From a virus: a DNA stretch of 35,315 bases. Every line of letters begins with the position of its first letter. Position 1 is the stretch's first letter. The stretch spans positions 1 to 35,315 of the IMG/VR virus record IMGVR_UViG_3300036719_005244. The stretch is one strand, 5' to 3'. Both the position numbers and the translations under genes were made by a program. This document shows positions 6,548-23,617 of this stretch, one piece after another. Under the pieces are notes generated by a model, which saw only the letters and a program-made list of their open reading frames with translations, was not told where the DNA came from and did no database searches.

Positions 6548-7598
6548 CTCTTACTAAGTCTAAAGTGGAACAATGTATCCCACCAGCAAAAATTTCACCA
6601 TTTTCCAAAGAGACCTCAACAATATTAAAACCATTTTTTTCTAAAATGTCTTTAACGCCAATTGCTCGTCTATTAACCAACACGGTATTTTCATCGATAC
6701 TCAAAACATTCACGTCCATTCCTCTACTGGAGGCCAAACGAATATCAATATTCGTCATTCCTCGAACGTCAATATTTTGTGTTAAATCTTTAGGATAAAG
6801 ATACTTCCAATTTTTAAATTTTTTAGGTAATAAGTCTCTGATATTCGAATATAATGGATTAACAAGAAATACACCAGGTTTTAGACATATTAGGCACCCA
6901 TCTATGTGGTTGTCTGCGACATGAAGAATATGAAAATCTGTGTTAGGAAAAAGACTTTTTACCCATAAGAAACCGAGATATTGATTATAACTATTAATAT
7001 TAACTATACAGTCTCTACCTATTCTTAGAAATTGAGCTCCATCAATCGCCATCACGAAATTTTTCGGTATATTTTTATAATCCCTAGTATCACCCCAATG
7101 TCCTAAATCTACAGTTTTCTCAGTTAATTCTATATGAGGAGCTTTAATCCATTGCCCTCCTAATCCATTATTCCAAATACTATTATATGTATCATACAAC
7201 AAGGTGTTTTCGTAATATCTATTTTGAACGAAAGTTGGAGTTTCTATTATTTTATTCTGATATACTAACGTTAAATCTCTAACGTTACTAGCACTACTCA
7301 TTTCACTTTTAAAAGAAGGTGTAGAAAAAGATATTATCTTGTCTAAAGTTTTAGGACGATGAACAAGAATATTTAATTTAGAAAGAACGTTTGCTAAATT
7401 ATTTAACTCTTCATTTCTTTGATCTATGAGATTCATACTAACGTGATAATCTTCGAACGGAGACTCGTAAATTTTTTCGTCTAAAGCTTCTCTATAAAAC
7501 TGTTTAAATGTAATGTCACTGATGCGTTTGGTTAATTTTAACTCTCTACCGACGACGACTTCTTTTAATTTACCAAAACTTGTATTAGAATTAATCAC
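6525..7598 (-). CDS. Amidinotransferase (glycine/inosamine amidinotransferase-like)
   Basis: 357 residues, typical for the AGAT/StrB1 family. Visible active-site parts are MAIDGAQFLRIGRD (Asp186, Arg192, Asp196), DNHIDG with His231 and Asp233, and the nucleophile Cys343 in GGIHCSTLD. These enzymes move the amidino group of arginine to an amine acceptor through a Cys-amidino intermediate. Acceptors include glycine and, in streptomycin synthesis, the aminocyclitol scyllo-inosamine phosphate. GTG at 7598 is chosen for its GAGGAA seven bases upstream; it overlaps the GT gene by eight bases. With an aminotransferase and sugar dehydratase just upstream, an amino-sugar acceptor is a plausible inference. 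A free amino-acid acceptor cannot be excluded. Confidence 0.88.
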   Translation of the reverse strand: MINSNTSFGKLKEVVVGRELKLTKRISDITFKQFYREALDEKIYESPFEDYHVSMNLIDQRNEELNNLANVLSKLNILVHRPKTLDKIISFSTPSFKSEMSSASNVRDLTLVYQNKIIETPTFVQNRYYENTLLYDTYNSIWNNGLGGQWIKAPHIELTEKTVDLGHWGDTRDYKNIPKNFVMAIDGAQFLRIGRDCIVNINSYNQYLGFLWVKSLFPNTDFHILHVADNHIDGCLICLKPGVFLVNPLYSNIRDLLPKKFKNWKYLYPKDLTQNIDVRGMTNIDIRLASSRGMDVNVLSIDENTVLVNRRAIGVKDILEKNGFNIVEVSLENGEIFAGGIHCSTLDLVRDDEYIYY

Positions 7599-9053: not shown

Positions 9054-9967
9054 ATTCTTTTCCTATTCAATTCATTCTTTATCTTTCTAAGATTAACACT
9101 CATATCAATATGTTTCCAATTTACTCTTTTAATTAATTGTATTTCAGTATCTTCTAATTTTTCATAATCATATACCAATTGTTCTTTTATTTTTTCTCCT
9201 GGTCTTAAACCGATTATTACATAAGGATAGTTTTTTGGTATCAAATCAACGATGTTATTTTCTTCACCCATGTCTAATATGTAGGTTGAGTCTGTTTGTT
9301 CGAAGTCTATAACAGAAAGTATTAAATTACCAGCATCCTGAACTGTCATAAAGTGTCGCCTCATTTTAATATCAGTAATAGTAATTGGCAAGTTATTTTG
9401 TAATTGCCAGTTCATGGTTTCAATAAACGATCCCGAAGAATTATAAATGTTGCCAAACCTAACAATTTTAAACTTATTTTTATATTTTTTAGAATAATGT
9501 TGTACGATCCTTTCACACCATAATTTAGTATATCCCATATTGTTAATAGGATTTACAGCTTTATCACTTGAAATGTGTATCATGCTTTTAACTTTTTTGG
9601 CTTTTTTACATAAATTAATAGTACACAATATATTGTTTTTTATGACAGAATATGAGTTGTTTTCATCTTCCAAAGTATCGACATGTTTATAGGCAGCAGC
9701 ATTAAAAATATAATCAATTTTATATTTCTTAAAAATCATATCTACAATTTTCTTATCACTTACATCACCAACTATACAGTGAACATTTTTATGCGACAAT
9801 GATCTTTGTAATTTATATATTGAATATTCACTAATATCTATTGCTATGATAGTCTTAGCCTGTATTTTATTCACAAGTTCACTACCTATAGTTCCTCCAG
9901 CTCCAGTAATTAAAATAACGGAATTTTCAAAATTATTGCTATTTTCAATTATTAATTTATTTTTCAT
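9005..9967 (-). CDS. UDP-sugar 4,6-dehydratase (FlaA1/CapD/PseB-like)
   Basis: 320 residues from ATG 9967, which overlaps the radical SAM stop as TGATG; a GTG one codon earlier is possible. Motifs of polysaccharide-biosynthesis SDRs are clear: TGAGGTIG at 21-28, NAAAYKHVD near 89-97, SSDKAVNPINNMGYTK at 133-148 (catalytic Asp-Lys, and Met-Gly-x-Thr-Lys in place of YxxxK), RFGNIYNSSGSF and LRPGEKIKE. Relatives convert UDP-GlcNAc to a 4-keto-6-deoxy sugar, the entry to pseudaminic acid, bacillosamine and related amino sugars. The C-terminal tail is Lys/Arg-rich and its coding end runs 49 bases into the aminotransferase gene. The substrate is inferred from the family. Confidence 0.88.
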   Translation of the reverse strand: MKNKLIIENSNNFENSVILITGAGGTIGSELVNKIQAKTIIAIDISEYSIYKLQRSLSHKNVHCIVGDVSDKKIVDMIFKKYKIDYIFNAAAYKHVDTLEDENNSYSVIKNNILCTINLCKKAKKVKSMIHISSDKAVNPINNMGYTKLWCERIVQHYSKKYKNKFKIVRFGNIYNSSGSFIETMNWQLQNNLPITITDIKMRRHFMTVQDAGNLILSVIDFEQTDSTYILDMGEENNIVDLIPKNYPYVIIGLRPGEKIKEQLVYDYEKLEDTEIQLIKRVNWKHIDMSVNLRKIKNELNRKRICLKKLKKIIATTTIL

Positions 9968-11475
9968 CACAAACTCAACTTGTTATTTTTATATTCTTCC
10001 AAAAAGATATCAAAAAAGTTTTTTATGTATTTTCTTGAACCATGTACATTCAATTTTATTTTTTTGTCTAATGATAGTATTTGGCCATCGTCATCCACTA
10101 AAGTGCTAGGTAATACAAAAACTTCTAATTTAGAAAGATCATATTTTCCTCTTTCCCAAATAGTTCTAAATTTATTACTATACTCAGTCGCTTGAATTAT
10201 GTTCATATGTTCATTTTCCCAACATAGTCTTTTAAAAAATCCAGTGTTACTATCTTTTCTTAAAGCATCCAAAACGGGTTTTAATTGAGGATCATCCTCA
10301 TTCATTTTTTTATAACCATATTTTTCATAGTTAAACGACAATCTAGATTGCTTAGTCTCTACTTCCAACTGTCCCATACCTATATCTAAAACACTTGGAG
10401 CAATAGTTTGATCTATCCAATTATTTTTTACCCATTGATAGGTCTCTTCCAAAGATTCTATAGTTTCATGGGGTAATCCCATAATTAATCCCATTTCAAG
10501 CCTATGATTGCTATTTTTATAGAAATTTTTAATTTCAATCAGTCCTTCTTTTACTTTATCCGGATGCATTCCTTTTCCAACAACTTTAGCACTTTTATAA
10601 TTAAATGTTTCTATACCATAAAAGTGGGCTAAAAATCCCATTCTAAGTAATTCTTCTCTATCTTTTTTTCTACTTATCAATAAGTCTGCTCTAATAAATC
10701 CAGTAAAAAATGGTTTCCATGGTAAGGATTCCACAACATCCGCATATTTTGTAATTTTTTCCGTATAGTCATTAAATGTTTCATCACTAACCATATAATT
10801 TTCTATACCATAATCATAATAGGATCTTAACATTTGTTCTCTTACTTCATCTGAATCTCTAGTATGATCCTCCTTTACTCCCAAAACTGGAAAATTACAG
10901 AATAAACATTGAAATCTACAACCTCTAGAAAACTCTATTACTCCCCATTCACCAGGTTTTATAAAATCTCTTTTTTCGTAAAGTGTAGTGGGTTGTTTTA
11001 TTGGAAAAGCTGGATAAGAATGTATAGCATTTATAACTTTAGTTTTTCGAGACATCAAAAAATCAAATTTTGGTTTTTCTCCATTACTAAAAAGGTATTT
11101 CAACAAAGAATCTAAAGCATATTCTCCATAACCATAAACATGGTAGTCAACAAAACTCAAATCTTCTAATTGTGATTGTGCTCCAGAAATTAATACTATA
11201 TGAGGATATTTTTCTTTTAACCACAGACAAATTTTTTCTATAAAAATTTGAATTGGTAATTCATTGAAAATATAAGAAAATCCTATGAATTTTATTTCTG
11301 AAGGATTTCTAGAAATAATTAATTGTTGTATCTCTTCCATTTTCCAAAAAAAAGAGTAATCAATTACTTCACAATCCCATCCTTGCTGTCTAATATGATT
11401 AGCTATTCTATGTGGTCCCGATGATCTGTAAAATGTTTTATCGTTAACAGAAAATAATAAACTTTTAAATTTCAT
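9967..11475 (-). CDS. B12-binding-domain type radical SAM protein
   Basis: 502 residues from ATG 11475, which overlaps the upstream radical SAM stop as ATGA; a GTG ten codons earlier is less likely. The N-terminal 130 residues look like the cobalamin-binding Rossmann domain of this class (IKFIGFSY, IVLISGAQ, YHVYGYGEYALDSLL). The cobalt-ligating DxHxxG motif is not seen, so B12 binding is doubtful. The radical SAM core starts with SRGCRFQCLFCNF, Cys186/190/193, the CxxxCxxC cluster site. Later MGLIMGLPHETIESLEETY matches this class. Members perform methylations, ring changes and other radical steps. It closes the radical SAM run and is coupled to the dehydratase, so it may act on a sugar or lipid-linked intermediate; this is inference. 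Confidence 0.88.
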   Translation of the reverse strand: MKFKSLLFSVNDKTFYRSSGPHRIANHIRQQGWDCEVIDYSFFWKMEEIQQLIISRNPSEIKFIGFSYIFNELPIQIFIEKICLWLKEKYPHIVLISGAQSQLEDLSFVDYHVYGYGEYALDSLLKYLFSNGEKPKFDFLMSRKTKVINAIHSYPAFPIKQPTTLYEKRDFIKPGEWGVIEFSRGCRFQCLFCNFPVLGVKEDHTRDSDEVREQMLRSYYDYGIENYMVSDETFNDYTEKITKYADVVESLPWKPFFTGFIRADLLISRKKDREELLRMGFLAHFYGIETFNYKSAKVVGKGMHPDKVKEGLIEIKNFYKNSNHRLEMGLIMGLPHETIESLEETYQWVKNNWIDQTIAPSVLDIGMGQLEVETKQSRLSFNYEKYGYKKMNEDDPQLKPVLDALRKDSNTGFFKRLCWENEHMNIIQATEYSNKFRTIWERGKYDLSKLEVFVLPSTLVDDDGQILSLDKKIKLNVHGSRKYIKNFFDIFLEEYKNNKLSL

Positions 11476-12383
11476 ATAATATATCTTAAATCCTTTTTGT
11501 TGCACAATTCTATTACAGACCTATCGCAATATTTACAGACTTCATACTGCATATTCAGAATCTTTTCATAGTCTCCATCCCAAGGTTTTCCACCACTAGA
11601 TTCTAGAAACAGGTAACAGGGGTAAATTTTACCATCAATATCCACTTGCTGACTTTTATTTTCCCAACTCATACAGTAAGCTTTACCTTTTACGGGGCTA
11701 GCATATTTAGCTCGAGCAAATTTATCCATATGTTGATAATCTAAAAGTTTTTTACTGTGCGGCTTTAGTTTATCTAAATTAATTTTATTTTTATAATTAC
11801 TTTCTTCTTTTAGTAAAAAAGTTTCAGTCCAATAAATATTACTAAAGACTGAAACCATATCTTTAAATTTTTGGCTGTCAAAATCATCACTATTATAATT
11901 AAATCTTATACATTGAGCATAATCATTTTTTTTATTACTTCTAAAAGCTTCAGCGTTTTTTAAAATATTGATTAATTTAGTATTTTTTCTGTAAATTTCA
12001 TGTAACTCTTGAGTTGATCCACAAATTGTAAAATATACTCTATCTCTTTCATCCATTAATAATGAAAGTTGTTTCCACCATTCAACATCATTAGTATCTC
12101 CATTGGTGCATATTTCTATATTAACATTTCTATTTTTAAAATATTCGATCAACTCAAAAAAGTTTTTATATAAAGTTGGTTCTGATATTGTTCCAACCAA
12201 TCGAACCCATTCCAAATCTTTAAAACTGTTCATCTGAGAAATTATATCTTCAATAGGCCTAATTTTGTTTACTGGATAATGATCTTTATAATTTACATAG
12301 TTTCTATAACATAAACCACAACTGGCATTACATAAAGTAGTCAGTTCCAATTCAACATCAATAACTTTAGGTAAAGATAACAT
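11472..12383 (-). CDS. Radical SAM enzyme, SEPT-type paralogue A
   Basis: 303 residues. CxxxCxxC is at Cys18/22/25 (LCNASCGLCYRNY). It shares with the two paralogues at 13355 and 14275 the string GxxSEPTxY in the position where most radical SAM enzymes carry GGEP, then a long FTICGSTQELHEIYR and an IRFNYN strand. The C-terminal part holds cysteines in a SPASM-like layout (YCMSWENK, YPCYLF, CKYCDRSVIELC), which could hold an auxiliary cluster. ATG 12383 directly follows the TAA of a GT-A-like gene. The reaction is unknown. Peptide or sugar substrates are both open. Confidence 0.88.
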   Translation of the reverse strand: MLSLPKVIDVELELTTLCNASCGLCYRNYVNYKDHYPVNKIRPIEDIISQMNSFKDLEWVRLVGTISEPTLYKNFFELIEYFKNRNVNIEICTNGDTNDVEWWKQLSLLMDERDRVYFTICGSTQELHEIYRKNTKLINILKNAEAFRSNKKNDYAQCIRFNYNSDDFDSQKFKDMVSVFSNIYWTETFLLKEESNYKNKINLDKLKPHSKKLLDYQHMDKFARAKYASPVKGKAYCMSWENKSQQVDIDGKIYPCYLFLESSGGKPWDGDYEKILNMQYEVCKYCDRSVIELCNKKDLRYII

Positions 12384-13361
12384 TTATTTACCTAATAAAA
12401 AAATATCTTTTACGGTTAAATCCGGAATCTCATGTGCATCTAAAACGGACAATATTGATTTAATTGCAGTTTTTTTATATTCGTATTTTGGTAAATCATT
12501 TTGAAGTAATCCTGCCATATTGTTATAGTGATATATGACTGTATTTTCACTACAGCGTAATGTCTGGTCATTATCTATGTTAGCTTCTATAAAAGATAAA
12601 GCATTGTTACCATAAAACTCTCTGATGTCGATAAACAGTTCTGGATTTTTAGTATACATAATCATCGAAGCCATTTCTTCACAATTTGATTCTAACCATT
12701 TCATCTCAAGGCCATCACTGTTAAATTTATCGTAGTAGTTTTCATGTACGATATCCAATAATATGTAAGTTAATTTTTTCCATTCTTTCCAAAATTTATT
12801 TTTAGTTTTTCCGTATATGAACCAACTACTAACATATTTTTTAACACTTTCGACACGATACATTTCTGGCAAATAATCTTTATAGTAAGAATATAATCCA
12901 TTTGGATCAAATTCTTTCCAATATTTTGAATCTGTGTCATATAGTGTTAATACTATTTTATCAGTAGATTTGAAGAAATCAGAATCAATATTTTGCAAAA
13001 ATAATACATCTAAATCTAGCCAACACATATATTCGGTCTTTAGATTTTCACTGAACCACTCCGCAGTTACACACTTATTAGTGTAATTCACCTCAGTATT
13101 TTTTTGTTTATTACTTAAATCACCAATTTTAGTATAAGTAGCTCCATAAGAAACTATATTTTTTACACAATCTTTACTAATATCATTATGAGTTGGTTGT
13201 AAAAAATGAATATCAATCTCGTCTATTAGTTTTGAATTTGTTCTTTTCAAACTATTTAAATAAATTCTAGATTCTTCCTCAAACCGATGTGATGACTTTT
13301 TTTCTATACAGTGTATAAAAGATATTTTTTTATCTTTTTTAAAAATAGTATCATTTAACAT
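12384..13361 (-). CDS. GT-A-like glycosyltransferase (325 aa)
   Basis: Contains KTEYMCWLDLDVLFL with Asp-Leu-Asp at 116-118, the likely metal/nucleotide-sugar DxD. SWFIYGK and VIYHYNN follow, which resemble the acceptor side of GT-A enzymes that work on short glycans. It has no membrane helix, so it would be soluble. It sits between two paralogous radical SAM genes, overlapping the upstream one by seven bases and abutting the downstream one (TAAATG). This interleaving suggests that the radical SAM products or substrates are glycans or glycosylated proteins; that is inference. The exact family is not identifiable by eye. Confidence 0.65.
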   Translation of the reverse strand: MLNDTIFKKDKKISFIHCIEKKSSHRFEEESRIYLNSLKRTNSKLIDEIDIHFLQPTHNDISKDCVKNIVSYGATYTKIGDLSNKQKNTEVNYTNKCVTAEWFSENLKTEYMCWLDLDVLFLQNIDSDFFKSTDKIVLTLYDTDSKYWKEFDPNGLYSYYKDYLPEMYRVESVKKYVSSWFIYGKTKNKFWKEWKKLTYILLDIVHENYYDKFNSDGLEMKWLESNCEEMASMIMYTKNPELFIDIREFYGNNALSFIEANIDNDQTLRCSENTVIYHYNNMAGLLQNDLPKYEYKKTAIKSILSVLDAHEIPDLTVKDIFLLGK

Positions 13362-14278
13362 ACAAACTTTAATCCTGTTTTATCTATCAGAGTTCTGGTT
13401 TTCTTTTCACATAAAAAACAATCTGGATATTTAAAAGATAATATATCCGAATAATCATATTCTTCATTTTCGAAATAGTCCGCTTCGTTTTCCGCATGAG
13501 TATAACAGGCACTAACTTGTCCTCTTTGATTAATATAAACTTTTTTTTCTAGAAAACTTCTACAGCGTATTTCATAATTTTTACCGTCATCTGGTCGTGG
13601 TCGCATAAAAAATATTTTTTTAATCGCTTTATCTCGCAACTCCACTGGCCTAACATCTGCTTGAAAAGCTCGATTATAGTTTGTCAATCTTCTAATACCT
13701 TCACTATCAATTAACATTTTATTAGAAAATTGGTTTATAATGTCTTGCATCCCTTTTGATTTCAAATCTTCATCATTGTATTCAAAACGAATATGTTGTA
13801 TCCAATCATTTTTTTTACCATTTTTTCGATAAGCATCTGCGTGATCTAATATTTGTTGTAGACTGGAACCTACCCTGTATTTTTCATGTAATTCTTGTGT
13901 ACTACCACAAATTGTAAAAACAGTCATACACTTTTGTGGAACTAGTTCTCCTATCATTTGCCACCAATCAGGTTTATGTGTATTTCCATTGGTAAATAAT
14001 TCATAATAAATATCTCGACTGTTTAGATATTCTAGAAATTTTACAAAGTCTTTATACATAGTTGGTTCTGAAACAGCGCCGGCTATGAAGAATCTCTGTA
14101 GATTGGTATATTGATCTAATTGAGTTTTTATTTCATCAATAGAACGAACATTTTTATAAAGCATGTGATTGGCATGAGAATAATTTCTTGTGCAAAGAGG
14201 GCATTGGAGATTACACAGACCAACAAGATCCATTTCCACTTCTTCAACTTCACTCTTTTTCATAATATATCGACTCAT
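13355..14278 (-). CDS. Radical SAM enzyme, SEPT-type paralogue B
   Basis: 307 residues with Cys22/26/29 in LCNLQCPLCTRNYSHA. It has AGAVSEPTMY in place of GGEP, FTICGSTQELHEKYRVGSSL, and QHIRFEYNDED. C-terminal cysteines (IRCRSFLEKKVYIN, QVSACYTHAE, DCFLCEKK) follow a shortened SPASM-like pattern. ATG 14278 overlaps the stop of paralogue C as ATGA, so the two are co-translated. By eye it is closer to C than to A. It probably arose by tandem duplication in this lineage. The substrate is unknown. Confidence 0.88.
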   Translation of the reverse strand: MSRYIMKKSEVEEVEMDLVGLCNLQCPLCTRNYSHANHMLYKNVRSIDEIKTQLDQYTNLQRFFIAGAVSEPTMYKDFVKFLEYLNSRDIYYELFTNGNTHKPDWWQMIGELVPQKCMTVFTICGSTQELHEKYRVGSSLQQILDHADAYRKNGKKNDWIQHIRFEYNDEDLKSKGMQDIINQFSNKMLIDSEGIRRLTNYNRAFQADVRPVELRDKAIKKIFFMRPRPDDGKNYEIRCRSFLEKKVYINQRGQVSACYTHAENEADYFENEEYDYSDILSFKYPDCFLCEKKTRTLIDKTGLKFVC

Positions 14279-15195
14279 CCCATTCTCTCCATACCGTTAC
14301 TTTCTAACATTGTTTTGGTCATACTCTCACATTCGTAACAGTATTTGTTTTTAAATTTAAAAATATTACTGTAATCATTATGATCAAATAATGTTTTATC
14401 GTAAACCCGGTGTAAAAAACAGGGATGTTCACCTCCAAAGTTATCGACGAATAGATATTTTAATTCGAAACTTTTACATTTCATTGTGCATTTTGTGCCT
14501 GAATCATATCGTTTTAACACTGCATTTTTAATTACATTATATTTCTCTCCAAGCTTTCCCGCCATACGAATATCAGTATTAGTATCCTTAATAATATTAA
14601 ATCTTTCTTGATATGGAGCCGATTCACAGATATACAGATGATTAAATTCTTCTGTAATTTTTTTCATATCATCCGATTCTAAGTTGTCTTTGTTATATTC
14701 AAATCTAATTAATTGAATCCAATCAGTAGTTGTTCCTGATTTACGGAATGCTCTAGCATTTTTCAATACTTGTTCTAAACTTGATCCAGATTGATACTTT
14801 TCGTGTATCTTTTGAGTGGTTCCACAAACTGTGAATAGTACACGATTTTTTGGATGTACAATTAATGTACCTAGTTCTTCCCACCAATCCTCTTCATGAG
14901 TATTAGCGTTAGTGTAAAGGTCATAGTTTATATTTCTAAAATTAAGATAACGTATTAGTTCCAGAAATTGATCGTACATAGTAGGTTCACTGACTGCCCC
15001 ACTCAAACAAGCATAACGTAAATTAGGAAAACTATCTAAATGTGCAATCAACTCATTTAAAGGACGCATGTGTTTAACATTAAGATGTTGAGCATACTCA
15101 TAAGAACGAATACATAGGGAACATTCGAGATTACACTCACCCGTAAGTTCAAGTTCTACTTCTAAAATTTCGTACTTATTTAAACCGGTTTTCAT
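14275..15195 (-). CDS. Radical SAM enzyme, SEPT-type paralogue C
   Basis: 306 residues with Cys21/25/28 in ECNLECSLCIRSYEYA, then SGAVSEPTMYDQF, FTVCGTTQKIHEKYQSGSSL and IQLIRFEYNKDN. Cysteines near the end (KCTMKCKSF, HPCFLHR, YCYECES) again suggest a reduced SPASM-like region. It follows a 58-base gap, the largest in the cassette, which carries a possible late promoter. It may therefore be first in a transcript covering paralogues C, B, a GT, A and the sugar genes. All three paralogues open with the same beta strand pattern (EVELELTGECNL). Function is unknown. Confidence 0.88.
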   Translation of the reverse strand: MKTGLNKYEILEVELELTGECNLECSLCIRSYEYAQHLNVKHMRPLNELIAHLDSFPNLRYACLSGAVSEPTMYDQFLELIRYLNFRNINYDLYTNANTHEEDWWEELGTLIVHPKNRVLFTVCGTTQKIHEKYQSGSSLEQVLKNARAFRKSGTTTDWIQLIRFEYNKDNLESDDMKKITEEFNHLYICESAPYQERFNIIKDTNTDIRMAGKLGEKYNVIKNAVLKRYDSGTKCTMKCKSFELKYLFVDNFGGEHPCFLHRVYDKTLFDHNDYSNIFKFKNKYCYECESMTKTMLESNGMERMG

Positions 15196-15220
15196 ATTAT
15201 TATTTGAGTATGTAATTTTG

Positions 15221-15228
15221 TATTTATT
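15221..15228 (-). promoter_or_regulatory. Candidate T4-type late promoter in the 58-base gap
   Basis: AATAAATA on the minus strand, one base off the T4 late consensus, lies about 25 bases before the ATG at 15195 in the only sizeable gap of the radical SAM run. An 11-base direct repeat (TCAAAATCTTT on the plus strand, 15245-15255 and 15273-15283) lies beside it. A chance match is possible in AT-rich DNA. Confidence 0.3.
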
Positions 15229-15253
15229 TGTAGTATGGATAAAGTCAAAATCT

Positions 15254-15868
15254 TTATATGTAAATTATACTATCAAAATCTTTTTCCTTAAAAACTCTTC
15301 TCTTACTCTCTTTACTCATCCTTTGATAGTGACGAGCTAACATTTTGTGTTTTAATTTTCCATTTAATGTTACATTGTGTATACCTTCTGGGTTTGTTGC
15401 TCCAACTAAATGAAATTCAATATTAGGATATTTTTCTAGGAAAGCATCTAGTTTATGAAAATTATTATCAGTAACAATTAATAGATATTGTAAATCTAAT
15501 TCTGAATCAACAATAATTTCGTCATCAATATTCAAATCTTCCGAACAGTGATATAGAATAGTATCGAAACGATTTAACAAATCTCGGTAACGTTTAATAA
15601 ACAATCCATTAGTATTAATACTAGGACGACAACCTTTTTTCTCTAGTTCATCCAAAATAAATTCAATATCTTCACGTTTCATACTACCAACTTCACCACC
15701 ACTTAATGTTACATTATAACCAGGAATAACTTTATCTAATTTTATAATAACATCTTCCATACTCATTTTAGGACGATTATGTGTATCTACACAGCAGTAA
15801 TCGCAGTGCCAATTGCACACCCAAGTAACTACTAGTTCAATTTCTTTTTCTTTAGCCTGAACTGCCAT
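15254..15868 (-). CDS. Minimal radical SAM enzyme, DTHNRP paralogue 1
   Basis: 204 residues if the ATG at 15868 is used, four bases after the upstream stop. The frame stays open further upstream, but that part overlaps the neighbour. Cys18/22/25 lie in VCNWHCDYCCVDTHNRP, and TLSGGEVGSMK takes the GGEP position. SINTNGLFIKRYRDL, YHCSEDLNID and YLLIVTDNNF follow. Motif for motif it matches the next gene. Both lack any SPASM or twitch domain and are near the size of QueE-type small radical SAM enzymes, although they do not look like QueE itself. The C-terminus is basic. Substrate unknown. Confidence 0.85.
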   Translation of the reverse strand: MAVQAKEKEIELVVTWVCNWHCDYCCVDTHNRPKMSMEDVIIKLDKVIPGYNVTLSGGEVGSMKREDIEFILDELEKKGCRPSINTNGLFIKRYRDLLNRFDTILYHCSEDLNIDDEIIVDSELDLQYLLIVTDNNFHKLDAFLEKYPNIEFHLVGATNPEGIHNVTLNGKLKHKMLARHYQRMSKESKRRVFKEKDFDSIIYI

Positions 15869-15872
15869 CACA

Positions 15873-16448
15873 TTATCTAGAAACAACAGTGATGAATTCT
15901 TGCAGAGATCCAGGATGCACTTTATCACCATGGTCATTAAAAAAATTCATCATAAGATTTAAATTTATTTTTCGTTGTTTGCGAACATCTGGCAACAATA
16001 AAAATTTAATATGAGGATAACGATTTATCATAGTATGTATACTCCCATCTAAAAAATTAGTATTAGTCACGACTAGTCCATAAAATATATGGTCATATGG
16101 TAAGTTTGGAAACTCTATCTCACCTGGTAAATATTCGACACAGTGATAATGTACTTTTCCAAACTCATTAACTAGAGGCATGTGACGTTTAAAGAAAAGT
16201 CCATTAGTTAATAAATCAATTACACAGTTTTTATCTTTTAAGACTTTAATTAATTCGTTCAACTGTTCTCTCTTTAACAGACCGGGCTCACCTCCTCCAA
16301 AAGTGATTTCCGATTCAGGTTCAGCAGCGTGAGCTCTACGAAGAACTTCCTCGTATGTTAGTTCCGGACGATTGTGAGTGTCTGCTATACAGTAATCACA
16401 ATACCAGTTACATTTATACGTTAAAGGAAGTTCAACTTGTTTTGTCAT
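15873..16448 (-). CDS. Minimal radical SAM enzyme, DTHNRP paralogue 2
   Basis: 191 residues with Cys13/17/20 in KCNWYCDYCIADTHNRP, FGGGEPGLLKREQL, LLTNGLFFKRHMPL, HYHCVEYLPGE and YGLVVTNTNF. It is a tandem duplicate of the downstream gene with a more standard GGEP. The very short length means a partial TIM barrel of about six strands and no auxiliary cluster domain. ATG 16448 overlaps the end of the larger radical SAM gene by 17 bases. Two paralogous minimal enzymes side by side could work as a heterodimer; this is inference. Confidence 0.86.
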   Translation of the reverse strand: MTKQVELPLTYKCNWYCDYCIADTHNRPELTYEEVLRRAHAAEPESEITFGGGEPGLLKREQLNELIKVLKDKNCVIDLLTNGLFFKRHMPLVNEFGKVHYHCVEYLPGEIEFPNLPYDHIFYGLVVTNTNFLDGSIHTMINRYPHIKFLLLPDVRKQRKINLNLMMNFFNDHGDKVHPGSLQEFITVVSR

Positions 16449-17466
16449 ACCACCCTTTTCTATAAAAGTTTACCTTATCAATCTTTTCACCAGGTTCAGG
16501 TTTCAGAATAATGTTTTTAATTTGTTTTTCTACACCGTCGCAGATATAATAATGTTTACACTCTAAGCAATCTTTGGTTTTATAATAAGTTCTATTACGT
16601 TTAAATGCTGCGGCCGAATACAAAGCCTTGTGTGGATCTGAACGATATGTTTCTGGATCAATGTCACCATTATATACGGCTATATTCCAATCATAAATGT
16701 CGTAAATGTGTTGGTAGTAATTACAAACGTACTGTTCATAACCTTTCATAAAACAATATGGTGTGTAACGAACATTGATCTTTTCAACCATATCTTTGAG
16801 TAAATCTATGGCTTGATGCACATACGGAGTAACTTCAGTATAGTCTATGGTTTCTTGTATACCAGCATCATCCCAATAGTTTAGTGTTAGAAAGTTTACT
16901 TCAAATGGTTTGAGTTCTTTAACCAATTCAACAAACTTAGTTGGCAAGTTTTTAAAATTTTTATGTGTAACTGTACAATTAATTCTAACCAATATTCCTA
17001 GTTCGTGGGCATTTTTAATTGCCTGTACGATATTCTCAAAACCTTTGCGATGTCCTACTAGGATGTTGTGACTGTCCTTATCGTAACCATGTACTGAGAA
17101 CAGTATTTCTTCTAATCCGTGTTCTTTGCTTTTGCGTAAGAACTCTTTGTCAGCAAATTTGTAGCCGTTGCTCAGTGTGCTGATCTTTAGTCCTTTACTC
17201 TTACAGTAATCAAGTATGTCAAACCATTGCTTGTGTATGCTACTTTCACCACCACTAAGGTCTGCTTCTTTGATGCCGCAAGCAACAAGGTAATCTATTC
17301 TTTGTCGTATGACTTCAAATTCAGTTACATCATTTAACTGAGTTTTGTAATAGCAGAATTCGCAACGATAGTTACAGTGAGTACCTGTGTCTAATTTGGC
17401 ACGTTCACAGATTGGCTCGTCACGGTCTATCTGTAATTTGTTACTGAGTTCGTTGTAAAGTCGCAC
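16432..17466 (-). CDS. Radical SAM enzyme with partial SPASM-type C-terminus
   Basis: 344 residues from a GTG at 17466, with no ATG alternative before the cluster site. CxxxCxxC is at Cys31/35/38 in HCNYRCEFCYYKT. DLSGGESSIHK at 69-79 replaces GGEP, and HGYDKDSHNILVGHRKGFENI is typical of many SAM/SPASM enzymes. Near the end CLECKHYYIC (Cys300/303/309) with Cys238 and Cys248 could bind an auxiliary cluster. Its DNA is clearly richer in G/C than its neighbours (27 of 60 bases in 17221-17280, against 8 of 60 in 6001-6060), which may mean a different origin. It overlaps the GT-B-like gene by 40 bases. Confidence 0.88.
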   Translation of the reverse strand: MRLYNELSNKLQIDRDEPICERAKLDTGTHCNYRCEFCYYKTQLNDVTEFEVIRQRIDYLVACGIKEADLSGGESSIHKQWFDILDYCKSKGLKISTLSNGYKFADKEFLRKSKEHGLEEILFSVHGYDKDSHNILVGHRKGFENIVQAIKNAHELGILVRINCTVTHKNFKNLPTKFVELVKELKPFEVNFLTLNYWDDAGIQETIDYTEVTPYVHQAIDLLKDMVEKINVRYTPYCFMKGYEQYVCNYYQHIYDIYDWNIAVYNGDIDPETYRSDPHKALYSAAAFKRNRTYYKTKDCLECKHYYICDGVEKQIKNIILKPEPGEKIDKVNFYRKGWYDKTS

Positions 17467-18362
17467 GTTATAATGCCTTTAAGTATATTCACAAGGTCGT
17501 CACTGGGTTTTAGATGTAAACTATCAAAGTCATTTTCTATGTCCCAGTTACGCCAATATAATCCTCGATCTTCATTCCAATAATCTATATTGTGAAAGAC
17601 TACAGATTTTTTGTAGTATTTACATTCCGCTATAAATCGTGGACTACAATCCCATTTTCGTTTGACTGGAGTGTAAACATAGGTATTAAACTGTTCAAAT
17701 AAATTGTCCACAGGAGCAACTACAAAAGTAAATCCAGGTATTGGATCAGGTTTATTTTCTTTATTTGTTATGACTAAAATATCATTCCCATACTGCCTCA
17801 ATTCTTCATAAGAATCTAAATTTCTACAGTTTTTTGTGGCGTAAACTAATACACTATCTTTACCATTGGTTAATGATTTTAGTCTATCAAATAGTATTTT
17901 CTTTTTATAGTTAATACCGTTTTTCTTCACAGGTTCATATACACGGTCGTCTTGTAAAATCCACACATTATCTCGATCATTATTTTTTATTTCTTTATTA
18001 CCACAGGCAAAATAAAAAATGTTATCGAAAATTAAAACTTTAGATGACATGTTAATCGTACCGCCATCTGTAATTAATATATTGCGTCCTTTAACCAATT
18101 GGGGTCGTAATGAAAATACCGTATTGGTTTGAATATCTTTAATTTCAGATTCCGAAAAGTCATATTTGTTTCTAATAATTACTTCAAGTGTAGGCCAATC
18201 CATTTCTTCAGCAATCAATATGCCTACACGAAAATACTGTTTTAATATATGATAGTAATCTATAACCTCAAATGTGTGTCCACAAATTCCATGATTATTG
18301 TTACTCCAAGAATAAGTTAACCACAAGTCATAATTAGGATCAAGTTTTGTTATCTTAGACAT
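17427..18362 (-). CDS. GT-B-like glycosyltransferase (311 aa)
   Basis: Has a two-domain alpha/beta build. The C-terminal half holds the donor-site-like stretch YVYTPVKRKWDCSPRFIAEC with Ser240-Pro-Arg and Glu246, followed by YYKKSVVFH. This resembles the E-x7-E region of GT4-type enzymes (S-P-R-x-x-x-E). The N-terminal half includes SNNNHGICGHTFEVIDYY, a possible acceptor loop. The fold call is tentative because the full set of GT-B motifs is absent. It overlaps the next GT-like gene upstream by 13 bases and the radical SAM gene downstream by 40, so it is part of the same transcript. Confidence 0.62.
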   Translation of the reverse strand: MSKITKLDPNYDLWLTYSWSNNNHGICGHTFEVIDYYHILKQYFRVGILIAEEMDWPTLEVIIRNKYDFSESEIKDIQTNTVFSLRPQLVKGRNILITDGGTINMSSKVLIFDNIFYFACGNKEIKNNDRDNVWILQDDRVYEPVKKNGINYKKKILFDRLKSLTNGKDSVLVYATKNCRNLDSYEELRQYGNDILVITNKENKPDPIPGFTFVVAPVDNLFEQFNTYVYTPVKRKWDCSPRFIAECKYYKKSVVFHNIDYWNEDRGLYWRNWDIENDFDSLHLKPSDDLVNILKGIITCDFTTNSVTNYR

Positions 18363-19135
18363 GCTTGTATAATTTCGTCTTGTTCAGTCAAGGTATAGTT
18401 TCTCAACCCATTCTCCGAACAATCTTTATACCTCAATTGTACAGAATCTAACACAGGATACCTATCTTCTATCGTCACTTTCTTACCATAGAAAAATGCT
18501 TCTGGTATAATTCTATTATCTCGATCCTGCGATGTGTGTATATAATGCACGGCATCAATCATTTCAAATATATTTCCATTGCCACCATGATGTTTTTTTA
18601 ATATTATAGGACGTTGAAATTGCTGTTTGTATTTTTCTAGATTATCTTTGATATAAATGTGATCGGGAGAACTAACAAACACACCTGGCATACTACCAAA
18701 TGGTTTGAATATCTCAAAATTTAATTTTAGATAACTGAACACATCATAATTTTGATAACTGTAGGATCCATAGTAAGTAACTGTTCTATGGTTCTTATAT
18801 CGAAACATTTTATGAGATTCGTTCGAGTAACAATAAACATCACCCGTAAGAAATTCTTTACAGTCGTAGAAAGACATTATGTCTAGAATAATTGCCTTAT
18901 CTAGTTTGATTTTGTATAAATCTGTAATTTTTATAGGAATAATATTGTCGAAGTCAGTATTATACTTTTCTCGAAATATACTGAGTACTAATTCTAAATC
19001 TTTAGCATTTATTCCTATAATATAAAACTTGGCGTCAACAAACTTACGTAGAAACTTAAAATATTCAAAACAGTAAAATAATGTTCCATTTATTTTATTA
19101 TTAGGCTTAAACTTATATACTACACCTATTTCCAT
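18350..19135 (-). CDS. GT-B-like glycosyltransferase (261 aa)
   Basis: Shows a weaker version of the pattern in the next gene: AVHYIHTSQDRDNRIIPEAFFYGKKV, where Glu212 is the likely nucleotide-sugar contact. The first half reads like a glycosyltransferase N-terminal Rossmann domain (IGVVYKFKPNN, VYCYSNESHKMFRY, GVFVSSPDHIYIK). It is shorter than most GT-B enzymes. It lies three bases after the unknown 206-residue gene and overlaps the following GT. The two GT-like proteins may form a pair that builds consecutive links, which is inference from adjacency. Confidence 0.58.
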   Translation of the reverse strand: MEIGVVYKFKPNNKINGTLFYCFEYFKFLRKFVDAKFYIIGINAKDLELVLSIFREKYNTDFDNIIPIKITDLYKIKLDKAIILDIMSFYDCKEFLTGDVYCYSNESHKMFRYKNHRTVTYYGSYSYQNYDVFSYLKLNFEIFKPFGSMPGVFVSSPDHIYIKDNLEKYKQQFQRPIILKKHHGGNGNIFEMIDAVHYIHTSQDRDNRIIPEAFFYGKKVTIEDRYPVLDSVQLRYKDCSENGLRNYTLTEQDEIIQACLR

Positions 19136-19138
19136 TTT

Positions 19139-19759
19139 TTAATAACTTTTGTAAAAATTTTCTAGAAAATTTTTCTCCAGTTCTTTGACCTGCTCTTCGG
19201 TTGAACACTGTTTTATCTCTTGGGAAAACTTACTAAATTTCCTTTCTAAGCTAGATACTGATTCTATTTCATCTTTATAATTTAAATAATCTTCAAGTTT
19301 GGAAATTAATTTTTCATCTCCAGTTTCCAAAATTTGTAAATATTTTTCTTCTCTATTATCGTTTGTAATAAAATATCCTTCATTGGATAAATCATTATTC
19401 AAAACGATAAAACCATAAAGAGCAAATCCTGAAATTTTAGATAATTCTGGTGTAACTAACATTCTAATTTTTGTTATTGAAGAATTTTTCACTTGTTGCA
19501 AATTATCTTCTTCAAACTCTTCGACAATTTCAAATTCTCCAGGCAAAACTTCATCGGTCATCATTCTTTCTTTAAAAATAATAACCTTTTTCTTATCGAT
19601 TAAAGCTTCCTGTATCATCTTATAGGACATATAAGATAGTTTTAACAGTTTTTCTTCACGGTTAACCAAATTGTCAAAAGAATTTTTCATGACATTTGTT
19701 ACCACCCATTGATTGCCTCTATTTTGAACGGAAGCTAATTCATAAATCATTTGACTCAT
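19139..19759 (-). CDS. Unknown protein (206 aa)
   Basis: No family recognised. ATG at 19759 is chosen for the AAAGGA six bases before it; a TTG two codons upstream is less likely. The N-terminal half is mixed alpha/beta (QMIYELASVQNRGNQWVVTN, VIIFKERMMTDEVLPGEFEI, GFALYGFIVLNND). The C-terminal third is strongly helical and charged (LISKLEDYLNYKDEIESVSS, EQVKELEKNFLENF) and may form a coiled coil. It follows the cysteine-rich S74 protein by 18 bases, so it could be a partner or chaperone for it; this is only positional inference. Confidence 0.6.
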   Translation of the reverse strand: MSQMIYELASVQNRGNQWVVTNVMKNSFDNLVNREEKLLKLSYMSYKMIQEALIDKKKVIIFKERMMTDEVLPGEFEIVEEFEEDNLQQVKNSSITKIRMLVTPELSKISGFALYGFIVLNNDLSNEGYFITNDNREEKYLQILETGDEKLISKLEDYLNYKDEIESVSSLERKFSKFSQEIKQCSTEEQVKELEKNFLENFYKSY

Positions 19760-19777
19760 AATCAATCCTTTAAAATT

Positions 19778-20500
19778 TTAAATTGGTAGTTTAGAATAGT
19801 CCACTTTATAAAATCCCTTCGAATCAACGGTTAGAGCTGAAGAGAATTTGGTGTTTAAGAGTTCTTGTGCTATAACTCCAGTGTAACGTTTTGTTTTATT
19901 CCAGATGTAATTCCAAGAATATATTTTTAAATTATTTCTTGTTTCAATATATTCTATATTTCGTTTCAATCGAATATCGCTATAGTTGCATCCACAATCA
20001 TTATGGCAACTGCAAACCAAATTACAAGAACAATCGGAGTTACAAATACAATCCTGTCTCATAGTATCATACCTGGATCTTAGACCAGACCAATCAGTAT
20101 CCTCAATCGTATTACCTGCTGCATAAGTTTGTGCAGCAGTAGTTAAATCTGGATCATCTCTTAAATTGGCAAAACTGGATCCTACAGGTTCAACCACATT
20201 CGTTATTGCTTGTACAACCGAAGAAAATTCATTAATGTGAGCATCATCTATCAACTGTGTGTTCGAAATCGTCGAGGTAGCAGAAGTCTTAGTTGAAAAA
20301 CTCCTGTGTTGTTTATATCTAGCTATTTCATCATTTATAGCAGTTTTTAGAAGGTTTATATCAGTAGCAGTAATTGTTTGACCTGCAACTGCAAAGCTGC
20401 TACTTGAGACAGGTCGATTCGTAGCGCAAGACGCTCTATGTCCAGTACAAGTTGTTGTTCCTGTTCCATGTGACGCACAATGTGATCCTGAGCAAGCCAT
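19778..20500 (-). CDS. Cysteine-rich virion protein with C-terminal S74 chaperone domain
   Basis: 240 residues in three parts. The N-terminus is rich in Cys and His (MACSGSHCASHGTGTTTCTG; Cys3, 8, 18, 25; His7, 11, 21). The middle (40-150) is helical and polar. A block at 151-171 repeats CxCxxx four times in exact six-residue steps (CICNSD, CSCNLV, CSCHND, CGCN). Straight after it comes SDIRLKRNI at 174-182, then RYTGVIAQELL and KVDYSKLPI. These mark the Peptidase_S74 intramolecular chaperone found on phage fibres, whose members can cut themselves off near this Ser-Asp. The mature protein would then end at the CxC block. The ATG overlaps the SPASM enzyme stop as TAATG. Twelve cysteines beside a SPASM enzyme suggest thioether or other radical modification. 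Metal binding is the main alternative. Confidence 0.82.
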   Translation of the reverse strand: MACSGSHCASHGTGTTTCTGHRASCATNRPVSSSSFAVAGQTITATDINLLKTAINDEIARYKQHRSFSTKTSATSTISNTQLIDDAHINEFSSVVQAITNVVEPVGSSFANLRDDPDLTTAAQTYAAGNTIEDTDWSGLRSRYDTMRQDCICNSDCSCNLVCSCHNDCGCNYSDIRLKRNIEYIETRNNLKIYSWNYIWNKTKRYTGVIAQELLNTKFSSALTVDSKGFYKVDYSKLPI

Positions 20501-21663
20501 TATGCTATCTCCCTCTTAATACTTATTATTTCTGTTTGTTTTTGCATTAAATGTTTCTGTACAGTTCTATCTATTTCACCGAAAGATTTAAAGAAACCGC
20601 ACATGTTATTTACCCATCGATCAGTCCAGCGATCAAAGTAATCTCCTTTCTTACTATTATCCAAACTAGAAACTGGGCAAATCATACAAGTGGTTGCTAC
20701 ACAACCTTTACACGTATCACTCATATCTCTAATAGGAATCTGATACGATTTTGCCATTTTTTCTACGTCTTGCACAAATGAATTTTTTTGTATGTCACTA
20801 CCTTGCATCAATTCTTTGTTTGGACTATACAATGATCCGTGACAAGCATAACTTTTTCCATCAACATCAATAGCGTGCATATGAGCACCAGAGGCGCAAT
20901 GTTGTTTTGAATCACTACCATTAAACCAAGTACACAAATGTCTGCCGTGTTCCTCATAGAAAGAGATTTCTTCTTTAGCTATTTTTAACATCTCTTTTCT
21001 AAAAGATTCTATCAATTCTGGTAAATTTTCTTTTGGTATTTCTTCAACATAATCTATTGTTGGCGCATAAGACACCGTAATATTTTTTCCGATATTATTT
21101 AGTTTTTGATGCAAATCTTTAAAATCCAACCATGTTTTATATAAACCCGTCATACTTTTAAGTGGTATTGTGGACTTCAACGAAAGGCCTATGCCTTTTT
21201 TGGCAAAGTATTCTATATTCTCAACCACTTGTGATGAAGTTGGTTTTCCAGAATGAGTTATTCTAAATTTATCATTAATTTCTTTTCCATCATAAGATAT
21301 TTGAATATGCAATTTTGAACAATCTACATTATCTAAAATATCATCAAGTCTTTTTCTATTATAACCATTTGTGTAGATGTGAAATCCAATATAATCATAT
21401 CTTTGAAATTCTTGCATTATATCAATTATTAATTTTCCGTTAAGGGTTGGTTCTCCTCCCCAAAAAGAAATATTTAAATTATCATAATTATTGATAAAAA
21501 AATCACTTTCAATAAATTCATAAATTCTTTTTTTGACGAGATCGACCTTATCATCCAATCTTTGAGTGTTAGTTTTTACACCCTCAAAACAATAAGAGCA
21601 GCCTAAATTACATAAAGCTGTAGTGGTTATTTCCAAAGTAAATTGATTGGACTTGTTATTCAT
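20500..21663 (-). CDS. SPASM radical SAM enzyme (peptide-maturase / anSME-like)
   Basis: 387 residues, the length of anaerobic sulfatase-maturase and peptide-maturase enzymes. Core site Cys18/22/25 is in LCNLGCSYCFEG; ISFWGGEPTLN contains GGEP at 69-72; IQISYDG follows. The SPASM part carries Cys256 with Gly269 and Cys274 (CASG...DVDGKSYAC), then CKGCVATTCMIC (Cys318/321/326/329) and Cys355, enough for two auxiliary [4Fe-4S] clusters. Members act on Cys, Ser or backbone carbons of proteins or peptides. The stop shares one base with the start of the 12-cysteine virion protein (TAATG). This makes that protein the best substrate candidate, though this is unproven. Confidence 0.92.
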   Translation of the reverse strand: MNNKSNQFTLEITTTALCNLGCSYCFEGVKTNTQRLDDKVDLVKKRIYEFIESDFFINNYDNLNISFWGGEPTLNGKLIIDIMQEFQRYDYIGFHIYTNGYNRKRLDDILDNVDCSKLHIQISYDGKEINDKFRITHSGKPTSSQVVENIEYFAKKGIGLSLKSTIPLKSMTGLYKTWLDFKDLHQKLNNIGKNITVSYAPTIDYVEEIPKENLPELIESFRKEMLKIAKEEISFYEEHGRHLCTWFNGSDSKQHCASGAHMHAIDVDGKSYACHGSLYSPNKELMQGSDIQKNSFVQDVEKMAKSYQIPIRDMSDTCKGCVATTCMICPVSSLDNSKKGDYFDRWTDRWVNNMCGFFKSFGEIDRTVQKHLMQKQTEIISIKREIA

Positions 21664-21895
21664 CTTTCTTGTTCTCCGAAAAGTTCATAATTTCATCGAG
21701 TATTGAATTCATTTTTTCTTCTGTTATTTTTTCTGGTTCTGGTTGAATTATTGATAGCATTTCATCTGCCATCCTAAGAAGTCGAATTGATTCTTCTCTA
21801 AAAATGTCAACATTACTTAAAAATTTTCCTGCTTCCATTAAACTCATAGAAGCATTGTATAAGGACATATTCATCCTGTTTATTTCATTAGCCAT
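21656..21895 (-). CDS. Small helical acidic protein between two SPASM genes (79 aa)
   Basis: Predicted almost wholly helical (INRMNMSLYNASMSLMEAGK, FREESIRLLRMADEMLSIIQ, EKMNSILDEIMNFSENKKDE), rich in Met and acidic at the end, with no cysteine. It overlaps the upstream SPASM gene by eight bases and the downstream one by eight, so all three are co-translated. It might be a small subunit, a leader-binding helper (as RRE-type proteins are in RiPP systems) or a virion helper. It does not look like the winged-helix RRE fold itself. No family recognised. Confidence 0.65.
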   Translation of the reverse strand: MANEINRMNMSLYNASMSLMEAGKFLSNVDIFREESIRLLRMADEMLSIIQPEPEKITEEKMNSILDEIMNFSENKKDE

Positions 21896-22889
21896 TAATT
21901 AACTCTTCCTTTATAATTTTCCTAAAATGAAGATCACTTTTCAACTTTGATGACATTTTACCCACTAAAGAGTAAATGTATTTATATGCAACACAGAGTT
22001 CTTCTATTGGACCTTGATTTTTTATTTGTTCAAATAGACAACCTTTTCTACAATAATACTTGACCTCACAAGATTGACATTTTTCCATATTAATAAATTT
22101 AGGTATTTTTTCAATCATTTCTGGACTATCTTTAAATCTTGTACAGGGTACAACTTTATTATCAGAAAACATGAATATGTCTTTACCCGCCCCACAAAAT
22201 TGTGTTATATGTCCTTTATCATGATATTCTAAAAAATGTCTTAAATAAAAAAGTATTAGAAATGGCATCTCTTCATTTGTATTGTTTTCATACCAATCAA
22301 AAAGTTCTTTGATGCCCATCTTTAATTTTTCTATACTACTTTTATTCCATAAACCAACATCTCGAACTAATGTAAATTCCGAATTAAATCCAAACTCGTT
22401 TTTAATGAATAAATGATTTTCTAATAAATTGTAACAACCTCTAGATATCATTGTATGACATTTAACATTATTTAATTTTTTAAACAGATGTTTTTTTTCT
22501 AAAAATCTATCTAGCGTACCTTTACCATTCAATTGTAATCTATTTTTATCTTGCCACAATCCATCAAAACTTATAGATATTTCAATGTTTTTTTCATTCA
22601 AAAAATTTACAATTTCATCCGTCAACAACAAGGCATTAGTTGGCATGAAATACTTTATATTATCGTCTTTGATGTTGTCAATAATATATTCTATCAAATC
22701 CATTTGAAGAAGGGGTTCTCCTCCAAAAAAATCTATTTTAATTTTTTCTGTGGGAAATTGTTCTCTTAGTTTTTTAAATTCTTCCAAATATAGGTCAGCA
22801 TCGATTCTTTTTTTAGACCACTTATCTACACCACAATAAGAACAATTTAAATTACATTTTTCAGATAAAACTGCTAATAGAGTTTTCAT
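21888..22889 (-). CDS. SPASM radical SAM enzyme
   Basis: 333 residues. Cys12/16/19 in KCNLNCSYCGVDKW, FFGGEPLL near 55-61, and ISISFDG. The SPASM region fits the consensus spacing closely: Cys232 and Cys249, then CQSCEVKYYCRKGC (Cys271/274/280/284, exactly C-x2-C-x5-C-x3-C) and Cys299. It should carry two auxiliary clusters. ATG 22889 overlaps the stop of the sugar dehydrogenase as ATGA. Its place one small gene upstream of the second SPASM enzyme suggests both work on the same target or in sequence. Peptide substrates are usual for this architecture. Confidence 0.92.
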   Translation of the reverse strand: MKTLLAVLSEKCNLNCSYCGVDKWSKKRIDADLYLEEFKKLREQFPTEKIKIDFFGGEPLLQMDLIEYIIDNIKDDNIKYFMPTNALLLTDEIVNFLNEKNIEISISFDGLWQDKNRLQLNGKGTLDRFLEKKHLFKKLNNVKCHTMISRGCYNLLENHLFIKNEFGFNSEFTLVRDVGLWNKSSIEKLKMGIKELFDWYENNTNEEMPFLILFYLRHFLEYHDKGHITQFCGAGKDIFMFSDNKVVPCTRFKDSPEMIEKIPKFINMEKCQSCEVKYYCRKGCLFEQIKNQGPIEELCVAYKYIYSLVGKMSSKLKSDLHFRKIIKEELING

Positions 22890-23617
22890 ATCCTAAATTT
22901 TTTATTTAATTGTAAGACAGTATTTAAGATATCAATATCAAAATGTTTAGTGAATGCTTCGGTATCTTTTGGTAAACAGGGACCACCGAATCCTCTATAA
23001 CCATCGTTTCCTGGAACATTTAAATGATAATTTCCTATCCAAGGATGTTTAGATATTATATTTTTAAGTTCATCATAATTAACGTTCATCTTTTCAGCTA
23101 CATCATATATTTGATTCATAAAAGTAATTTTTGTGGCAAAAAAACTATTTAAAGTGTATTTAATTAATGAAGCCGTTTTTATATCAGTAAGAAAGGTGTT
23201 TTTTGGTTTTACTTGAGACTTAGTTTTATATAACTCTAACAACTCTTCAGACCTATTTCCACCAATAATCAACAGATGTGGATTGATAAAATCATCAAAA
23301 GCCGTATCTCTAGATAAAAATTCAGGATTATATATCACATCACGATTGAGTATATAATCGGGAAGAATTGTTGATTTAACAACGACCATGCCCTTATAGT
23401 TGCACAAAAAAATCTCATCTAAAACATCGGTCAAAATAGAATAATTAATATCACTATTTGGAGTAGGAACACAAACAAATATCGCTTCTGTATCAATAGA
23501 ACAAAGCTCTTTTATAGTTGTAGAATTATATTTCGGATCTACAATAACACATTTTGTTTTGTTAAAACCATATTCAACTGCTCTACCAACAAAACCATAA
23601 CCTACAATACCAATCAT
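22886..23617 (-). CDS. Short UDP-glucose/GDP-mannose dehydrogenase-like protein
   Basis: 243 residues, against 390-450 for full enzymes. NAD-binding GYGFVG is at 6-11, then FVCVPTPNSD, VVKSTILP, IYNPEFLSRDTAF and the catalytic GFGGPCLPKD with Cys214, Lys217 and Asp218. The protein ends soon after the central helix, so the C-terminal UDP-binding domain is missing. Full enzymes oxidise C6 of UDP-sugars to the uronic acid. The intact reading frame and kept catalytic residues suggest a deliberate short form, but whether it binds UDP-sugar is uncertain. It starts 14 bases after the long fibre gene with GGGAG before the ATG, and opens the modification cassette. Confidence 0.85.
   Translation of the reverse strand: MIGIVGYGFVGRAVEYGFNKTKCVIVDPKYNSTTIKELCSIDTEAIFVCVPTPNSDINYSILTDVLDEIFLCNYKGMVVVKSTILPDYILNRDVIYNPEFLSRDTAFDDFINPHLLIIGGNRSEELLELYKTKSQVKPKNTFLTDIKTASLIKYTLNSFFATKITFMNQIYDVAEKMNVNYDELKNIISKHPWIGNYHLNVPGNDGYRGFGGPCLPKDTEAFTKHFDIDILNTVLQLNKKFRI

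Follow-up and report, generated by a model that had tools for sequence, protein, structure and literature searches.

Why should the gene for a cysteine-rich phage protein overlap the gene of a radical-SAM enzyme, and could such an enzyme be modifying a structural component of a virion? The locus that raises this question lies in a 35,315-base IMG/VR virus record (the whole of which is referred to here as the window), with T4-type tail genes located upstream of the cassette in question. Running along the minus strand from 23617 to 19778, this cassette starts with the gene for a sugar-nucleotide dehydrogenase and continues with those for enzyme A, a small protein of 79 aa, enzyme B and a protein with 12 cysteines, and neighboring genes overlap: the stop codon of enzyme B overlaps the ATG of the Cys gene in a TAATG at position 20500, and further overlaps join B to the small gene, the small gene to A, and A to the dehydrogenase gene (Table 1). 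An earlier, sequence-only reading had drawn attention to the TAATG overlap and to a second SPASM enzyme and a small helical protein encoded upstream, all of which are borne out, the small protein being predicted to consist of three helices. The operon is wider than that reading had described, extending by one gene at its start, the dehydrogenase gene (whose position is kept in contigs L002-L008, L028 and L029), and by three conserved downstream genes and at least seven additional radical-SAM genes. With few exceptions, window-type relatives also have, 3' of the Cys gene, the 208-, 261- and 311-aa protein families encoded at 17427-19765. The 261- and 311-aa proteins were considered as glycosyltransferases, but PDB profile searches returned no supporting match, and we have therefore left them unnamed. 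Elsewhere in the window, the radical-SAM protein of the same cluster encoded at 9967-11505 may contain a B12-binding domain (PF02310, 0.0023, below cut-off), and the product of 6525-7598 gave a weak match to the arginine deiminase/amidinotransferase type (PF02274, 0.0044, below cut-off).

Table 1. Positions of the genes and protein regions of the window that are discussed in the text
Feature	Coordinates	Strand	Evidence
UDP-glucose/GDP-mannose dehydrogenase-like protein, first gene of the cassette	22886..23617	minus	PF00984 4.6e-17, PF03721 3.4e-10
Enzyme A, radical-SAM/SPASM, 333 aa	21888..22889	minus	PF04055 5.3e-15
Possible helper of 79 aa and three helices, encoded between A and B	21656..21895	minus	AF2 pLDDT 88
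Enzyme B, radical-SAM/SPASM, 387 aa	20500..21663	minus	PF04055 1.2e-12
Proposed substrate, a 240-aa S74 protein with a Cys array	19778..20500	minus	Pfam S74 and Cys pattern
N-terminal Cys/His box, residues 1-30	20411..20500	minus	Better conservation of C18 and C25 (mostly kept) than of C3 and C8
Helical middle, residues 31-149, G..I.A.DIN.L-type repeats	20054..20410	minus	AF2 helices 45-65, 86-100, 134-149
(CxCxxx)4 Cys block, residues 150-173, where the mature protein is predicted to end	19982..20053	minus	Homologue alignment; L011 and L012 end here
S74 intramolecular chaperone/autoprotease, residues 174-240	19781..19981	minus	Pfam S74; Ser174/Lys179 dyad in SDIRLK
Conserved protein phrog_25260, 208 aa	19139..19765	minus	Close 3' of the Cys gene in relatives
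Conserved downstream protein, 261 aa	18350..19135	minus	Conservation in relatives
Conserved downstream protein phrog_24441, 311 aa	17427..18362	minus	Conservation in relatives
At least seven further radical-SAM genes (16432-17466, 15873-16448, 15254-15937, 14275-15195, 13355-14278, 11472-12383, 9967-11505)	9967..17466	minus	PF04055 matches

The protein at the end of the cassette contains exactly 12 cysteines, namely C3, C8, C18 and C25, and eight in the block 151-CICNSDCSCNLVCSCHNDCGC-171. Both features that had been singled out from its sequence, a CH-rich N-terminus and a (CxCxxx)4 block of exact six-residue period, are present, and this block pattern never arose when the protein sequence was shuffled 200,000 times. 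In a comparison of 13 homologues, the Cys block was the most conserved part of the protein, with six of its eight cysteines invariant and a mean identity to the window protein of 0.80, against 0.32 for the helical middle and 0.42 for the S74 domain. The structural route was uninformative, both for the AF2 model (pLDDT 61) and for the fold search carried out with it.

The Cys block is directly followed by SDIRLK, the start of a domain that belongs to the S74 family (Pfam S74, 2.3e-7; the score of 31.5 bits exceeds the cut-off, 22). The five-residue spacing of S174 and K179 is identical to that of the dyads in endoNF (S911/K916) and in T5 pb1 (S1264/K1269), in which the bond before the serine is cut. 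Since the dyad is as in known S74 domains, the mature window protein is predicted to end in ...CGCNY. The Cys proteins of contigs L011 and L012, which have no S74 domain, end in CGCNYS or CGCNYA, which is where the cleaved window protein is predicted to end, and the Cys array is therefore the predicted mature C-terminus. The S74 domain is split in contigs L043, L051, L055, L057, L060, L061, L076 and L218, and less clearly in L066: the Cys protein stops about 12 residues past the catalytic serine (SDxRLKxxIxYM stop), and the rest of S74 forms a separate downstream ORF (in L043, this ORF was not seen within the stretch read), an arrangement suggestive of a chaperone that is completed in trans. 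L043 and L051 have several Cys genes in tandem. Because S74 is missing from two contigs and split in about eight, we rejected it as the key to function. The view that a self-chaperone marks this protein as a trimeric fiber or tip protein thus holds as far as the S74 domain and its dyad are concerned, but not for the class, in which the domain may be absent or split; a trimeric state is implied solely by S74, and AlphaFold assigns no confident structure to the Cys block. Compared with the S74 fibers endoNF and T5 pb1, the window protein is small and carries a Cys array, and none of 80 control S74 proteins had two or more CxC motifs within the 40 residues before the S74 serine.

Enzymes A and B are both members of the Radical_SAM family (PF04055 above cut-off) with a CxxxCxxC motif. 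The Pfam SPASM model matched neither enzyme, but each has seven SPASM cysteines, which include CX2CX5CX3C in A and the variant CX2CX4CX2C in B, and across 13 homologues of either enzyme, all ten cysteines of the two motifs are unchanged. The best NCBIfam model was PapB (NF047865) for both A (4.3e-32, 111.6 bits) and B (8.4e-25, 87.7 bits), far under its curated cut-off of 340, and QhpD (TIGR03906) came second for A (8.3e-26, 90.6 bits; 54.5 bits for B), also below its curated cut-off, 453; as all cut-offs were missed, these likenesses are leads rather than family assignments. The closest solved structure, found by PDB profile match for both enzymes (A 1.8e-23, B 3.6e-16), is 5wgg, titled radical SAM domain protein in the database, which we take to be CteB. 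CteB, PapB and QhpD all form thioether links from Cys. The phage systems resemble the PapB/CteB maturases of ranthipeptides/SCIFFs in having these as their closest SPASM profiles and in the Cys-rich putative substrate encoded next to the enzyme, but they differ in usually having two enzymes per system and in that the proposed substrates are phage proteins of 71-534 aa with a C-terminal array, not short leader-core peptides. QhpD, the quinohemoprotein amine dehydrogenase maturase, is a SPASM enzyme that acts on an entire protein subunit, cross-linking Cys within it; its substrate is different, and no amine dehydrogenase genes were seen here. A precedent for two radical-SAM enzymes in one system is provided by thuricin CD (PMC12093266). 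The 79-aa protein has a homologue at the corresponding place in relatives; domain and family profile searches gave no family match, and comparison of its predicted fold gave no convincing PDB relative. The RRE family matched neither A, B nor the 79-aa protein. The sequence-only description of a RiPP-like system is apt with regard to a dedicated pairing of putative substrate and enzymes, which is seen as co-occurrence, but not with regard to a short leader-core precursor and an RRE.

Searching IMG/VR with the window protein, its alignment and the DNA pattern of the Cys block yielded 13 further contigs, all of which keep the gene order A-small-B-Cys, with two other genes between A and the small gene in L014. 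To view the class more broadly, the pattern C.C[DN]CNYC.C[DN]CNY was used, giving 44 array contigs that were compared with 50 control contigs that had been selected by an ordinary S74 motif, with gene calls made by a simple ORF script both here and in the reverse search below. It had been proposed at the outset that the idea would fail if homologues of the Cys protein were common without a nearby radical-SAM gene. Instead, radical-SAM genes accompany the array in 13/13 window-type contigs and in 39/44 of the broad class, compared to 2/50 controls (p=1.8e-18). The difference remained when contigs were clustered at 70% identity (27/30 array clusters versus 2/50 controls, p=1e-15) and when, because the array contigs are longer than the controls, only contigs of up to 70 kb were counted (19/24 versus 2/49, p=5e-11). 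One of the two control exceptions encodes a protein ending in CECQCQCAC directly upstream of radical-SAM genes. Profiles of A and B matched 37 and 38 of the 44 array contigs, respectively (E<=1e-8), most of which matched both. Contigs L039, L045/L068 and L046/L048 have arrays without any radical-SAM gene; they encode long CxC-array proteins among tail genes, and because they may be fragments the enzymes may lie elsewhere. The array is nearly always C-terminal: either it closes the protein with CNY(S), or an S74 domain, complete or split, comes next. Its length runs between 3-4 and upwards of 50 CxC motifs, with a period of six or seven residues.

The reverse approach started from B's own alignment. 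A CxC-array gene is present in the fetched stretch of 35 of the 38 full-length B relatives (E<=2e-14), usually directly 3' and mostly 3-65 bases downstream, versus none of 12 weak matches. Among the 17 contigs with B relatives that had been found without selection for the array, a few of them near-duplicates, 14 have the array, or 16 when variants are included. Variant Cys-rich ends occur beside B in L218 and L222 (CLCDGQCGLNYTCVC and CHSDC repeats), and L225 has A and B and no Cys gene in 8.6 kb. Other Cys-rich proteins are encoded near radical-SAM genes at L222:9154-9657 (CHSDC arrays) and L237:5653-6378 (mixed Cys/His), hinting at a class broader than CxC arrays. The pairing of the array with two SPASM enzymes is real and far wider than the window.

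These results bear on whether the array is modified at all. CxC and CxxC are common metal motifs, T4 gp37 contains an HxH-iron needle, and the regular period of six or seven residues, together with the trimer that S74 implies in many members, would also suit a metal- or Fe-S-binding needle stacked in a trimer without covalent modification, with the radical-SAM enzymes serving another step. We consider such a needle unlikely, given that it leaves unexplained both the association of the same two SPASM types with the array in nearly all lineages and the outcome of the reverse search, and that the array varies so much in length and S74 is dispensable.

Cultured phages also carry the system. In Campylobacter phage CP220, homologues of A (CPT_0023) and B (CPT_0184) and a sugar dehydrogenase-like gene (CPT_0019) are present, and four genes upstream of B lies CPT_0180, which encodes a protein of 534 aa with 35 Cys and a (CTCDCNY)6 array; this gene is about 2 kb from B and about 30 kb from A. 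The window-family profile gave no array match on CP220, and CPT_0180 was found by reading the gene neighborhood. One set of 15 Campylobacter phage records contains homologues of A, of B and of CPT_0180; as these records are close relatives, we count them as one lineage. The accessible parts of the original description present the radical-SAM clusters of CP220 and CPt10 as probable metabolic genes, and note the 21-bp repeat of CPT_0180 without tying it to the radical-SAM genes (PMC2853527); these clusters resemble the window in having A and B homologues together with a Cys-array protein, here the (CTCDCNY)6 protein. A glycine amidinotransferase has likewise been reported from the CP220 and CPt10 clusters (compare window 6525-7598). 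The Campylobacter clusters have been called unusual, with metabolic or DNA-protection roles proposed (PMC2853527, PMC3322345).

A and B might, then, belong to a sugar/radical-SAM cassette dedicated to glycan or nucleotide chemistry, with the Cys gene merely sharing a hypervariable region. The window and its relatives do contain genes for sugar epimerases, for an aminotransferase and for a deacetylase, as well as numerous further radical-SAM genes, and such modules are described as variable in Campylobacter phages (PMC2853527) and in pelagimyophages, for which radical-SAM clusters are reported (PMC7029224). However, distant lineages agree in having B overlap or adjoin the Cys gene and differ in their other radical-SAM genes, most B relatives retrieved independently of the array still have it, and the Clostridium contig described below has a single SPASM enzyme with its Cys protein right after tail genes. 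This explanation is thus improbable, slightly more so than a metal needle, and the large clusters with their sugar enzymes leave room for other roles of A and B.

Where would the Cys protein act? A baseplate wedge gene is present in the window (phrog_438, 2.7e-86), A and B of L225 lie beside tail sheath and tube genes, and on Clostridium rectalis contig L077 Dit-like and Tal-like tail genes are followed by the one SPASM enzyme and then a 142-aa CxC protein. The idea of a tail tip is based on these neighbors, T4-type tail genes in the window and Dit/Tal in the Clostridium contig, from which we judge it likely that the Cys-array protein is a tail part. A secreted, RiPP-like effector (a toxin or superinfection factor) that is modified by A and B and functions outside the virion is very improbable: the top relatives of the enzymes are peptide maturases, some Cys proteins are as small as 71 aa (L088, the smallest noted) and tandem copies occur, but no leader peptide or RRE was seen, S74 is a chaperone of virion proteins, and the genes adjoin tail genes.

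The regular array and its near-constant pairing with two radical-SAM enzymes suggest a tail part that is chemically remodeled in the manner of some peptide natural products. That the Cys protein is the substrate of A and B is probable, and it is somewhat less so, if still favored, that the whole constitutes a dedicated phage maturation system. Counting against such a system are the array contigs that lack radical-SAM genes, all of them possible fragments, as well as contig L225, the wide margin by which the PapB and QhpD cut-offs were missed, and the 30 kb or so between enzyme A and the Cys gene in CP220. In this system, the CxC array of the Cys protein, which is co-translated with the enzymes, would receive post-translational, Cys-centered modifications from A and B, possibly with the small helical protein delivering the substrate. 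Where S74 is present, the chaperone would first trimerize the protein and then release itself by a cut before Ser174, so that a small tail-associated protein is left whose exposed C-terminal end is the modified array. Covalent stiffening or capping could favor survival outside the cell or during penetration. PapB substrates show C-x3-D spacing. The array does not show this spacing cleanly, so that our tentative choice of intra-chain thioether bonds as the likeliest single chemistry follows from enzyme similarity only; epimerization, other Cys chemistry and metal loading are possible alternatives.

Peptides and a few enzymes are known to undergo radical-SAM maturation. In the open-access literature, we found no report of such maturation of a phage structural protein, and open-access papers contained nothing relevant on CNCNY-type motifs; the available parts of PMC2853527, PMC3322345 and PMC7029224 make no link between radical-SAM clusters and a Cys-array protein. 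Because cultured phages carry the system, it is directly testable, and 38 virion proteins of Campylobacter phage IBB_35 have been identified by MS (PMC3322345). We see the chances as evenly balanced that these proteins form a widespread virion-protein class whose C-terminal Cys array is rebuilt by a dedicated radical-SAM pair into a covalently cross-linked tail tip. If true, this would be a new way of building phage tails, bringing natural-product chemistry into the virus particle, and it would open a large and varied set of substrate/enzyme pairs to peptide cross-linking chemistry and provide a function for radical-SAM genes that have long been called odd in Campylobacter and other phages.
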